Of a DNA stretch of 38,506 bases, positions 3,796-38,147 are shown in pieces (position 1 is the stretch's first letter; each line of letters starts with the position of its first letter). The stretch covers positions 1 to 38,506 of the IMG/VR virus record IMGVR_UViG_3300031566_000165. One strand, given 5' to 3'. Made by a program: the position numbers and the translations under genes. The notes below the pieces were generated by a model, which saw only the letters and a list, made by a program, of their open reading frames with translations, ran no database searches and had not been told where the DNA came from. The stretch is from a virus.

Positions 3796-4674
3796 TCAGG
3801 AAGGAGAGGTCGAGGTGTAGATCTGCGACTCGACGACACCATCGGGCTGCAGAGCCAGATCCTGACGCTCGGGGGGCTCGTCGGCAACGATCCAGCAGAC
3901 TTCGCAGATTGCGAGAGCCTTGTCCTTGCCGGACAGCTTGCCAGCACCAGCGCGGGGATCGTAGATACCCGAACCTTGAGCCAGACCGGAGGCAGAGGCG
4001 CCACCCAGGTCGGTGGTGGTGAACAGCTTCCACTGAGTCTCGGAACCCAGAGCAGCGAGGCTGCTGGAGTCGATGATGTTGGTGGAAGCAGTGCTGCCGT
4101 TAGCAATGCGGCTGGAGGAGCCGGTGATCGAAGCACCGAACTGACCAGACACCACAGTGCCGTCGTCAAGCAGACCTTGACCCACAGCGGGGATCAGGGT
4201 CAGCTGAGGGGTGGCAGAACCACCGGCAACGCCGGAGCTCACAATGTCGCCGCCATCAACGCGCAGGGAAGCGCGATAGACGTAAGCGCCAGCGGGAGCT
4301 TTGATGCCATCGGTGATATCAGCCCGGACATCCTTATGGAAGTCGGGAGAAGGAACGATGACTTCGGCGTTCAGGAAGGGCTGTTCGGCGCTGTTCTGAC
4401 CCGAGCCATAAGGACGGGTGTAGTAGGACAGCTGGTTGGTAGAACCCAGATCCTGATAGCTCAGGTCCACGTAACCAACGGCCTGCTGAGCGATCCAACC
4501 GGGGCGGAAGACCACGCCGACAGGACCACCAACGGGCTGGTTGGTGTAGCTGGTTTGAACGCCGTTTGCGTTCTCGAACTGAACGGTCTTTTCTTCGTGC
4601 CAGTAACGAAGAACGTTCGTGTAGTTGCCAGGATAAATCTTGGCAACGTGTAACTGGTTAGAGTTGATCGCCAT
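3796..4674 (-). CDS. Capsid-associated structural protein downstream of the major capsid gene
   Basis: A 292-residue protein encoded 14 bp after the major capsid gene. It has one of the best ribosome binding sites in the window (AAGGAGGT 8 nt before ATG 4674) and a strong terminator after it, all signs of very high expression. The sequence is beta-rich and Gly/Ser/Thr-rich, with many short segments typical of virion surface proteins (for example GYVDLSYQDLGSTNQLSYYT). I do not recognise a named family. From position and expression signals a capsid decoration or cement protein, or a second capsid protein, is the likeliest role; a head-to-tail protein is an alternative. Confidence 0.85.
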   Translation of the reverse strand: MAINSNQLHVAKIYPGNYTNVLRYWHEEKTVQFENANGVQTSYTNQPVGGPVGVVFRPGWIAQQAVGYVDLSYQDLGSTNQLSYYTRPYGSGQNSAEQPFLNAEVIVPSPDFHKDVRADITDGIKAPAGAYVYRASLRVDGGDIVSSGVAGGSATPQLTLIPAVGQGLLDDGTVVSGQFGASITGSSSRIANGSTASTNIIDSSSLAALGSETQWKLFTTTDLGGASASGLAQGSGIYDPRAGAGKLSGKDKALAICEVCWIVADEPPERQDLALQPDGVVESQIYTSTSPS

Positions 4675-22409: not shown

Positions 22410-22495
22410 TGCCCGAGGCGAGACTTGAACTCGCACAACCCTGTCGAGTCAACGGATTTTAAGTCCGGTGCGTCTACCGATTCCGCCACTCGGGC
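22410..22495 (-). tRNA. tRNA-Leu (anticodon UAA)
   Basis: The minus strand folds as a class II tRNA. The acceptor arm is GCCCGAG/CTCGGGC. The D arm contains TGGCGGAATCGGTAGACGC, the anticodon loop CTTAAAA carries UAA, the variable arm is long as expected for Leu, and the T arm is GCGAG-TTCAAGT-CTCGC. The discriminator base is A and CCA is not encoded. At 86 nt it has no intron, unlike the tRNA-Leu(UAA) of many cyanobacteria, which holds a group I intron in the anticodon. It probably supports UUA decoding in phage genes. Confidence 0.97.
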
Positions 22496-26476: not shown

Positions 26477-26791
26477 TCAGGCCGATCCGCGAAACCAACG
26501 CTGTTTATCTGAGAACCATTCAGCCAAAGTCGTCGGATCTTGGGGACCCACGAGGTGGTTAGAGGGATCAGGATCGCCCAGATCCATTTTTTGCATAAAA
26601 TCGTCCAAACTACCCTCCTGTACATCACCGTTAATCGCGGCACGTCGCGCTTTACGGAGCATCGACTCGACCGAGTGGTTAACTTTCGCCAGTTTCTGGA
26701 TCCACTCCATATCTTTGAACTGGACTTCACCGCCACTCGCGATCCTCTCGCAAACAAACTCACACCGTTGACGTGTATTTGTCGACAGCAT
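26477..26791 (-). CDS. Conserved cyanophage-type small protein, 104 aa
   Basis: A 104-residue protein starting MLSTNTRQRCEFVCERIASG, with KDMEWIQKLAKVNHSVESML (about residues 26-45), RKARRAAING and an acidic end containing MDLGDPDPSNHL. I recall this arrangement (TRQRCEF, DMEWIQKWA, KARR, LGDPDP) from small proteins in marine cyanophage genomes; their function is unknown. The overlapping minus-strand frame ending at 26464 is rejected as a shadow. The DNA upstream is AT-rich with no clear promoter. Confidence 0.75.
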   Translation of the reverse strand: MLSTNTRQRCEFVCERIASGGEVQFKDMEWIQKLAKVNHSVESMLRKARRAAINGDVQEGSLDDFMQKMDLGDPDPSNHLVGPQDPTTLAEWFSDKQRWFRGSA

Positions 26792-27168: not shown

Positions 27169-27241
27169 TTTAAGTGAATTAATTCTAAGACGCAAAATTC
27201 TGGGCGAAATTTTTTTTCGCAGGGCGTATCAGCATGTTGAT

Positions 27242-27255
27242 AGTCAAAACTTTGA
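27242..27255. promoter_or_regulatory. Short palindrome upstream of the structured RNA, possible operator
   Basis: GTCAAA-AC-TTTGAC is a 6-bp-arm palindrome in the gap between the divergent 96-aa gene and the structured RNA. A weak TTGATA/CAAAAT promoter pair spans it (17-bp spacing). It could be an operator for the RNA promoter. Evidence is suggestive only. Confidence 0.3.
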
Positions 27256-27399
27256 CCCCCAAAATTCCAGCAAGATACCCAGACCCTTCTCGGCGGCGGC
27301 GTCGGTACGCGTGTATATCTAAAAAAAAGGGGTCATTGCGGGGTGGCAAAGTTACACCTACCGGGCACACATGTGAAGGGGCATGATGACTTGGTGGGA

Positions 27400-27412
27400 A
27401 TCCTTCCTAGAA
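27400..27412 (+). repeat. 13-bp direct repeat inside the RNA ends, left copy
   Basis: ATCCTTCCTAGAA occurs here and at 28213-28225. Both copies are followed by related sequence (CAAT, two bases, then CCACGGG; the left copy has one extra T before CAAT). The left copy overlaps the closing helix by two bases; the right copy ends 2 bp before its partner strand. The repeat may be structural, for example for alternative closing helices. Confidence 0.7.
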
Positions 27413-27736
27413 TCAATGGCCACGGGCTGAGCCCTGCGGTGGGGTGGGGCGGTTGCTTTTAAATTAATTTAGAACGCGTGCGCGATCTATATATGCACCC
27501 AGCTCACCTAGTGTGACGGTCAGATCTCTGGCACACCTAGGCTGGGGATTGGGCAGGCTGTGCCCTTATGCTGGCATCAAGCCAAACGGGAGCGATCCCA
27601 AACGGCCAGAACCTAGACAATCCAACACACCAGGGCCAGCCGAACCGGTAGCCGTGGCAGTGAAACTCAGAAGCCTTGCGCCTTGAGATCCTTTGCGATC
27701 CCGCCATTGTTTCAGATTGTTTCAATCCCTGCCCTT

Positions 27737-27917
27737 ACGGTTCCGACAGGCTGCCCCCATGCTGTAGGATCTGGGTATCAGGGATCAAACCCTGCGCACC
27801 TTGACAATCCAAACACTCCCTGCCTGATACATGGGCGGACCCGTAGGGAGAGTGTGCCCCTTTATCGGTGGACTCCGAGCAAGGCATACGTTCCGACGGG
27901 CTGCTTGAAACTGTAGG
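27737..27917 (+). repeat. Duplicated RNA module within the structured RNA
   Basis: TTCCGAC(A/G)GGCTGC, a variable loop, then CTGTAGG occurs at 27737-27768 and 27888-27917. Another shared block, CCT(A/T)GACAATCCAA, lies before each copy (27612 and 27799). In the first module ACAG pairs with CTGT; in the second ACGG still pairs with CTGT through a G-U, a compatible change. This points to an internal duplication of an RNA domain. Confidence 0.6.
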
Positions 27918-27943
27918 CGTGGTGTGTGTGGACTCGAGGGGAG

Positions 27944-27955
27944 GAACCTTGAAAA
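27944..27955 (+). promoter_or_regulatory. Cyanobacterial rRNA-type boxA antitermination sequence
   Basis: GAACCTTGAAAA is identical to the boxA antiterminator known from cyanobacterial 16S-23S spacers, where Nus factors (NusB/S10) bind the RNA. The following bases (CTGAATAA) also resemble the usual spacer continuation. Here it sits in the middle of the structured RNA and not next to an rRNA gene. It may prevent premature termination of the long structured transcript or bind host Nus factors. Confidence 0.65.
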
Positions 27956-28212
27956 CTGAATAACGGGACAGGCACCGACGTGGTGAGGGTAGGCGAACTA
28001 GCGCCGCACCATGCACGGCCCTGATGCGGACTGCGCCGATGGTGTGCGCAGTAGCCAGACGGCGGCGGCCGGACTGAAATTAACGCGAGCAGTGGCAGGC
28101 TCACCGTCCCGATAGGTTAACTTTCTCTTTCGCCATGCGTGGGCCCGCGAGAATACTGTGTCCAGAGTAACTGTCTCTGATGCAGGTACGCTGGACAGAC
28201 TCGGGAGGGGCC

Positions 28213-28225
28213 ATCCTTCCTAGAA
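28213..28225 (+). repeat. 13-bp direct repeat inside the RNA ends, right copy
   Basis: Exact second copy of ATCCTTCCTAGAA (left copy 27400-27412), immediately before the 3' strand of the closing helix. Confidence 0.7.
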
Positions 28226-28297
28226 CAATTCCCACGGGGTCCGGAATCACAACAATTTGCACAATTGAATAGCTTTTGTGCGCATAATGTGCGCTAT

Positions 28298-28326
28298 GCT
28301 CGGTTTTTATTCCGGGCCTTTTTTCC
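28298..28326 (+). terminator. Intrinsic terminator of the structured RNA (plus strand)
   Basis: GCTCGG-(8 nt)-CCGGGC forms a 6-bp stem with one G-U pair, followed by one C and eight T. It is preceded by two further hairpins (GCACAA/TTGTGC and GCGCA/TGCGC). It lies 180 bp before the first protein gene on this strand, so the RNA upstream is probably a free transcript, not a leader. Confidence 0.85.
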
Positions 28327-28509: not shown

Positions 28510-28827
28510 ATGACTGTTTTTGTTGACCAAGATGCACGCGTTGAGCTTGAACTTTACTCGTGCAACTTCTCTTCTGCTCACTACAACGATGTGGGCAAAG
28601 TTCTCTCCAAGTTTCATAAGAACGGCACTTACGATTACGAACGTGCTGTTAAGTACATCGAGCGCAATTTGGTACTTCCTGCTGCTAAGGATTACCTAAT
28701 GTGCCACGGCTCGATGACTCAATCCCTGCGCAATACGTTCCCCAAGAACCTGCGTATGGTGATAGCTGAGGATATAGCTAACGCGTTCCGCGCTGAGTTC
28801 GAACTTGGCAACTACTGGGAGATCTGA
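28510..28827 (+). CDS. Hypothetical protein, first of the small-gene chain, 105 aa
   Basis: I choose ATG 28510 because AGGTG lies 7 nt upstream; a GTG three codons earlier is part of that site. The 105-residue product begins MTVFVDQDARVELELYSCNF and is mostly helical afterwards (NDVGKVLSKFHKNGTYDYER; EDIANAFRAEFELGNYWEI at the end). No family is recognised. It heads a chain of nine plus-strand genes with almost no spacing and is preceded by a long hairpin-rich leader. Confidence 0.78.
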   Translation: MTVFVDQDARVELELYSCNFSSAHYNDVGKVLSKFHKNGTYDYERAVKYIERNLVLPAAKDYLMCHGSMTQSLRNTFPKNLRMVIAEDIANAFRAEFELGNYWEI

Positions 28828-36962: not shown

Positions 36963-38147
36963 ATGAACAAAACCCTGTTTGCCAACCTCCAGAACTTCCG
37001 CGCTTCTTTAAACGCTTCCTTCTTGGAGCGCAGCGTCGTCATTGACGGCTTACTCGCCAGCCTCATCACAAAACAGAATGCTTTCCTTTTCGGTCGACCA
37101 GGGACAGGTAAGTCCGAGCTTGTCCGAGCTGTAGCGAAAGGCTTCACTGGCTGCAGTTTCTTCGGTTATCTCCTCTCTCCCACGACGGATCCATCTGAGT
37201 TGTTTGGTCCTGTCGCTGTATCCAAACTCCTCAAGGATGAGTACACGAGAGACGTAGAGGGTTACCTACCTACAAGCAATATTGCTTTTCTCGACGAGCT
37301 CTTCCGAGGGAGTTCAGCCGTACTCAACTCTCTGTTGACGATCCTCAACGAGCGGACCTTCAACAACGGTAAGGATGTAATCGAGACACCTATTCAATCG
37401 ATCGTCGCCGCCACTAACTCGTTTCCTCAGGAAGAATCTCTTCAGGCATTCTGTGATCGCTTCCTTTTCAGGCCGACTGTTGAGTCCCTACTTAAGCCTG
37501 TATCGAAACGGATTCTTGACCAGTGGACGTTCGGTATTCAGCAACGACCTGCAGTCGAATCAGATCTCAAGTTCGAAGACTTGCTACAGCTTCAAAAAGA
37601 TGTAAATGAGATCAAAGTCGACGAGGAGTTCTTAGATCGTTTCAACCAAGTAATCGATCTCCTATCTGCTCGAGGAGTGTCGATTAGTGATCGGCGAAGA
37701 GTCCAGATCCTCAGGTTTATGCGTGGTTGGGCTCTTGTGCAGGGTGACGATTGTCTCTACGCGGAACACCTACATCGACCCTTCCCCCACATCGTCTACC
37801 AAAACAAAGAGGACATTCGAGCTATCAAGGAAGTCTTGATGCAGGCGATCCCAACTGCTGAGAAGCAGATGGAGGACATCAAGAAAGCTCAAAACGCAAT
37901 CATGACTGAGTACCACGGGGTCTTTACAAAGACATCTAAGTCTTTGAGCGAACTCAGCTCGAATGTAGAGAAACTAAAACGACACCATAAAGATCTCTCG
38001 ACCCTCGCGAATAAGCTCGATGAGATACTCGATGGCGGAAGCTACAGAGTTACCGCAGCTGCACGCAGGGAAGCAACAAAAGTATCTCAGCTGATCGAAC
38101 AGTCCAAACAACTTGTAGCTAAATCAATCTCAGACATCACACCATGA
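36963..38147 (+). CDS. MoxR-family AAA+ ATPase, RavA-like
   Basis: A 394-residue AAA+ protein. Walker A is GRPGTGKS (44-51). After it comes the RavA-like block YLLSPTTDPSELFGPVAVSK (69-88) and GYLPTSNIAFLDELFRGSSA (100-119), with Walker B IAFLDE. Then come LNSLLTILNERTFNNG (121-136), sensor 1 in VAATNSFPQEES (148-159) and arginine finger CDRFLFRP (164-171). The C-terminal third is a coiled coil. MoxR/RavA ATPases are hexameric chaperones that work with a VWA-domain partner such as ViaA. In phages their targets are unknown. The next gene, overlapping by 4 bp, sits where the partner belongs. Confidence 0.92.
   Translation: MNKTLFANLQNFRASLNASFLERSVVIDGLLASLITKQNAFLFGRPGTGKSELVRAVAKGFTGCSFFGYLLSPTTDPSELFGPVAVSKLLKDEYTRDVEGYLPTSNIAFLDELFRGSSAVLNSLLTILNERTFNNGKDVIETPIQSIVAATNSFPQEESLQAFCDRFLFRPTVESLLKPVSKRILDQWTFGIQQRPAVESDLKFEDLLQLQKDVNEIKVDEEFLDRFNQVIDLLSARGVSISDRRRVQILRFMRGWALVQGDDCLYAEHLHRPFPHIVYQNKEDIRAIKEVLMQAIPTAEKQMEDIKKAQNAIMTEYHGVFTKTSKSLSELSSNVEKLKRHHKDLSTLANKLDEILDGGSYRVTAAARREATKVSQLIEQSKQLVAKSISDITP

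Follow-up and report, generated by a model that had tools for sequence, protein, structure and literature searches.

Antitermination through boxA is known for rRNA operons, some host genes and lambdoid phages. In the nut sites of phage lambda boxA is followed by boxB and the protein N is required; the put RNAs of phage HK022 are short and need no Nus factors. The boxA-dependent process has been described in several studies (PMC4807359, PMC5725501, PMC10250234), and boxA in front of genes other than those for rRNA, suhB for example, recruits Nus factors (PMC5725501). In the cyanobacterial ITS, boxA reads GAACCTTGAAAA and the D4 element CTGCATA (PMC8461337). Large ornate phage RNAs are represented by GOLLD and ROOL (PMC12286853). 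The literature searched, which left out most subscription journals, contained no description of boxA in cyanophages or within a giant RNA of phages.

Extent and structure of the RNA locus

The window, i.e. the whole stretch of 38,506 nt of viral DNA that was analysed, carries a structured RNA locus at approximately 27215-28325. An earlier note, made from the sequence, had described a gene-free region that is GC-rich against AT-rich flanks, and both points were borne out: the GC content is 56% compared to 46% in the 2-kb flanks, and the longest ORF inside the stretch does not exceed 93 amino acids. The span given there for the RNA (27394-28326) does cover gene-free, structured sequence, but its start has to be moved, as conservation among homologues begins near 27215, well upstream of 27394 (alignment of 22 phages including Synechococcus phage S-EIV1). 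A conserved protein frame, which according to the same note would have spoken against an RNA, was looked for in the alignment of the window with the homologue L005 and not found. Between 27640 and 27965 this alignment contains five single-base indels, and substitutions hit all three codon positions; a protein-coding reading of the stretch was rejected on these grounds.

Homologues were collected from IMG/VR with the right (28510-28827) and left (26477-26791) neighbouring genes as anchors and with DNA patterns describing the core hairpin and the 5' block; more than 20 viral contigs turned out to carry the locus. The terminase encoded in the window shows 52% identity to that of S-EIV1, the nearest cultured phage, which supports the assignment to a cyanophage made in the earlier note. 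In S-EIV1, the 5' block is retained in the equivalent gap, where no clear boxA was found. BLASTN of the window RNA and the L007 RNA against 50,697 phage records gave no match, nor did the first protein of the rightward operon and its L058 relative match cultured phages; no Pfam family was found for this 105-aa protein. Searched as an exact pattern, the repeated element ATCCTTCCTAGAA had no viral match. The core-hairpin pattern gave 13 matches in genome contigs, scattered over unrelated phyla and judged to be due to chance. Nine contigs (L003, L004, L009, L012, L013, L029, L030, L031 and L097) start or end in or near the RNA locus, which is perhaps difficult to assemble. Elsewhere in the window, a tRNA-Leu (TAA) is located at 22410-22495 on the minus strand, and a MoxR-type AAA ATPase (bpMoxR, Pfam E 9e-54) is encoded at 36963-38147 within the rightward gene block.

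The following features were assigned, from 5' to 3':

27215-27345, plus strand: conserved 5' block (alignment of 22 phages including S-EIV1; pattern scan)
27568-27573, plus strand: possible second -10 element, TATGCT, immediately 5' of boxB-boxA 1, with a degenerate -35 here
27581-27606, plus strand: boxB-like hairpin 1, GNRA-capped, with matched AAAC internal loops (from sequence)
27609-27620, plus strand: boxA 1, GAACCTAGACAA (motif scan)
27779-27794, plus strand: boxB-like hairpin 2, CAGGG/CCCTG, folding directly 5' of boxA 2, in L005 too
27796-27807, plus strand: boxA 2, GCACCTTGACAA (motif scan)
27944-27962, plus strand: boxA 3 with D4-like element, GAACCTTGAAAACTGAATA (18/19 against the cyanobacterial spacer GAACCTTGAAAACTGCATA)
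27964-28111, plus strand: closed multi-branched exchangeable module, closed by CGGGAC/GTCCCG and common to L008 and L082
28159-28197, plus strand: near-invariant core hairpin TGTCCAGAGTAACTGTCTCTGATGCAGGTACGCTGGACA, in many homologues
28238-28324, plus strand: long hairpin at the 3' end, with a terminator-like element and T6 (fold; sequence)
28510-28827, plus strand: 105-aa gene that opens the rightward operon (anchor for the homologue search)

The 5' block, at which the leftward and rightward genes diverge, consists of a -10-like hexamer, a C-rich stretch, a TTCTCG element, an A8 tract and an ATTGCGG repeat, and probably represents a promoter or the 5' end of the RNA. The hexamer (27233-27238) reads CATGTT in the window and TATANT in most homologues. 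In several homologues (L045, L078), two or three copies of the ATTGCGG repeat (27335-27345 in the window) lie 3' of the A8 tract; the repeats could be an operator or iterons. Long alternating GC/GT tracts resembling Z-DNA separate the 5' block of L005 from its first boxA (approximately 3840-4010); such tracts were also seen in the leaders of L006, L028, L036, L078 and L097, and the window has none.

As the earlier note had claimed, the stretch is full of hairpins. The GNRA-capped stem with matched AAAC internal loops is present exactly as described there (27581 GCC-AAAC-GGGA-GCGA-UCCC-AAAC-GGC 27606), and at the plus-strand end (28298-28324) the announced terminator takes the form of a terminator-like hairpin (28298-28317) followed by T6. 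This U-tract terminator is not kept in all homologues. The hairpin at 28159-28197 is strongly conserved across those homologues that have it.

Folding energies compared to shuffled sequences gave z-scores of -2.75 for the plus strand and, more weakly, -1.92 for the minus strand, which by themselves are modest evidence of RNA structure. The real proof that the locus is structured at the RNA level is the covariation of its modules in homologues. An alignment of the module at 27964-28111 with L082 and L008, at a mean identity of 92%, shows five pairs that are changed on both sides and still paired. The 3' core of seven L003-type phages folds into a pseudoknot and long helices in which 94.6% of cells pair; it contains 17 pairs with double changes, and its covariation score was reached by none of 500 shuffles. 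Most of this L003-type core is absent from the window, which retains its central hairpin. The collection of homologues and the covariation analysis proposed in the earlier note thus yielded compensatory changes in both the window module and the related core, instead of substitutions ignoring the helices, and they support the claim of a structured phage RNA that is both large and new. In the alignment of hairpins adjoining boxA (A8), the sequences are too divergent for column-wise pair counting. In L003 (4560-4850) and its relatives (alignment A3), GTAGTTAGTTACAG can pair with either the upstream CTGTAACTAAG or the downstream CTGTAACTAACTAC, two mutually exclusive pairings that might constitute a switch.

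The ends of the RNA had also been described as closed by exact complements. The region contains four exact inverted 8-mer pairs, and the pair in question, GTGGGAAT/ATTCCCAC, is just one of these; it is missing from L005, and L086 and L030 show local pairing of the GGTGG/CCAC type in place of end-to-end pairing. The closed-circle reading was discarded, the complementarity being at chance level and absent from homologues.

The folded modules between the boxA copies vary strongly and are swapped among phages. The module at 27964-28111 is common to the window, L008 and L082 at 92-93% identity while neighbouring parts differ; on this basis the self-closed module is one that phages have exchanged, by recombination. 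Another module, CTAAGGGCAAAGGAG...CCTTAGTTA, is shared by L009, L083 and L086, again 3' of a boxA, and seems to be a further case of module exchange.

boxA signals in the phage RNA

A repeated motif with the consensus GAACCTTGACAAT, which the earlier note had missed, is located at 27609, 27796 and 27944. At the first two positions, GAACCTNGACAA differs by one or two bases from the cyanobacterial boxA, and GAACCTTGAAAACTGAATA at 27944 matches 18 of 19 positions of the Allocoleopsis ITS boxA and D4. Three plasmid-borne cyanobacterial rRNA operons, from filamentous cyanobacteria and not picocyanobacteria, served as reference: boxA with D4 reads GAACCTTGAAAACTGCATA in Allocoleopsis, Scytonema departs from it by one change and Leptolyngbya by two, and in each operon a hairpin ends a few bases before boxA. 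The same arrangement, with a hairpin directly 5' of boxA as in the cyanobacterial rRNA boxB-boxA, is present at copies 1 and 2 of the window; upstream of boxA 3 there is just a weak 3-bp hairpin.

All three matches to the boxA motif in the window lie in the RNA locus and on its strand, and the rest of the 38.5 kb has none on either strand. For all loci together, 31 unique sites were counted in leaders and 10 outside them, in 1.05 Mb of strand. This count is descriptive, since the motif was already known when the pattern was made, sites were assigned to leader or elsewhere by position and the phages are related. Hairpins of at least 4 bp ending at most 2 nt from boxA were found at 21 of the 31 sites, with 12 expected and a maximum of 19 in 100 shuffled sets, and these hairpins differ in sequence from site to site. 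The identification of the motif as the boxA of cyanobacterial rRNA operons is well supported by these sequence comparisons. It is the most persistent element of the locus across phages; several homologues have a single copy, and others, the window included, have two or three. A TTGAC box upstream of the first boxA was found in 15 of 28 homologues; the window, with its degenerate -35, lacks it.

The distant relative L058 has no giant RNA. Its TTGACT-17-TATATT promoter is followed by a hairpin, boxA (GCACCTTGACAACTGA), a short leader and coding genes, among them one related to the 105-aa first gene of the window. This order matches that of a bacterial rRNA leader, here in a phage operon. The arrangement is not uniform, because in the L057-like phages boxA (position 3028 in L057) starts a stretch antisense to a terminase-small-subunit-like ORF and not the operon.

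The host-like boxA and D4 pattern GAACCTTGAMAACTGMATAG was found in 34 viral contigs (L101-L134), three of which (L109, L113 and L118) carry the exact host sequence with a hairpin ending just before it. Others of the 34 may be coding, host-derived or chance matches, and the scan is a lead only.

Possible function of the locus

The chances are about even that the locus serves as the untranslated leader of the rightward operon, loading Nus factors for rRNA-like processive transcription. This is the most economical reading, the leader having presumably been expanded in this clade to a modular RNA of about 1 kb. A host-type promoter would start the RNA, and the operon behind it would presumably be early. 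The boxB-boxA signals (a hairpin, then GAACCTTGACAA) would bind the host NusB-S10 dimer, and RNA polymerase would thereby be loaded with Nus factors, as happens in the rRNA operons of the host. Modified in this way, the polymerase could cross the long folded leader and then the operon while pausing and terminating less often. Folded RNA follows every boxA copy, so that the RNA of about 1 kb is a string of boxB-boxA-module units. Transcription, Nus binding, antitermination and early timing are all predicted here from sequence. The identity and strand bias of boxA, the hairpin order, the TTGAC box, the order in L058 and the compensatory changes argue for such a leader. Against it stand the lack of a clear boxA in S-EIV1, the L057-like phages in which boxA is not at the operon start, the fact that the reference boxA sequences are from filamentous cyanobacteria and not picocyanobacteria, and the terminator-like hairpin at 28298-28324, which could end the RNA before the operon. 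Cyanobacteria are thought to lack Rho; classical Rho antitermination can therefore not be the point, and any gain from boxA would need to lie in reduced pausing, in intrinsic read-through or in the folding of the RNA. More tentatively, and with odds somewhat short of even, the chain of boxB-boxA units and exchangeable domains could give rRNA-operon-like early transcription, might in addition divert Nus factors, and would define a new class of giant RNA.

Given the terminator-like hairpin at the 3' end, much of the RNA may end as a discrete molecule, and two other explanations build on such a 3' end. The RNA could be free-standing, with a function of its own broadly like GOLLD or ROOL, boxA merely aiding the production of a long untranslated RNA as in rRNA. 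In favour of this rather unlikely alternative are the elaborate covarying modules, the near-invariant 3' hairpin and the pseudoknot of the related core, but the RNA has no Rfam match, and it is boxA that persists, while the body of the RNA is exchanged and varies greatly. It also seems unlikely that the RNA acts as a decoy, in which tandem boxA copies on a discrete, terminator-ended transcript would titrate out NusB-S10 and thereby lower host rRNA synthesis at takeover. Two or three boxA copies per RNA are more than a leader needs, and the large folded body could stabilise the RNA; however, several homologues have one boxA only, and the single boxA of L058 is found in a coding leader. A replication origin or RNA primer region, with the 5' block (A8 tract and ATTGCGG repeats) as the origin and the transcript priming or opening it, is very improbable. 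It would fit the conservation of the 5' block as far as S-EIV1 and its position at the divergence of leftward and rightward genes, but it accounts for neither boxA nor the preceding hairpins, and no marked GC-skew change was seen at the locus in a local scan.

If the leader reading is true, a tandem copy of a host rRNA signal would be a simple route for a phage to rRNA-grade transcription. The locus would also offer a natural system for asking what role boxA has in bacteria thought to be without Rho, and a giant RNA class with a mechanistic handle, unlike GOLLD and ROOL. Its modules show that RNA domains, like protein domains, are shuffled between phages.

Comparison with known RNA classes and antitermination systems

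At the gathering score, no Rfam family matched the RNA locus in the window or its homologues, the sole match in the window being a tRNA. At E-values up to 10, no GOLLD, ROOL, HEARO, OLE or intron match was obtained for the window, L003 and L005; Ocean-VII, neisseria_FSE and CRISPR-DR9 appeared with scores far below their thresholds and were rejected. Divergent membership of GOLLD or ROOL, which the earlier note had considered and for which it had proposed this covariance-model search (with HEARO and introns), is consequently not supported. Of its overall interpretation the large new cyanophage RNA is supported, and the known class and the closed ends are not.

With GOLLD and ROOL the RNA shares the character of a large ornate phage RNA with multi-branched domains and pseudoknots (PMC12286853). 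It differs in having no covariance-model match, in containing boxA units and in lying outside any tRNA island, the one tRNA-Leu being 5 kb away.

Like lambda nut and HK022 put, the locus would be a phage leader RNA giving RNA polymerase resistance to termination, but in contrast to lambda nut the hairpin comes before boxA (21/31 sites), as in rRNA. No known antiterminator domain was found in ten rightward proteins, N-like proteins being hard to recognise by sequence. The suhB-type boxA is likewise used outside rRNA, though as a single boxA near a host gene, where the phage has boxA in tandem within a large folded RNA. The bacterial rRNA boxB-boxA resembles the locus in its near-identical cyanobacterial boxA, in the hairpin directly 5' of it, in the long folded untranslated RNA behind and, for several phage homologues, in the promoter upstream. 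The differences are that the locus belongs to a phage, has protein-coding genes and no rRNA behind it, and combines at most three boxA copies with exchangeable modules.
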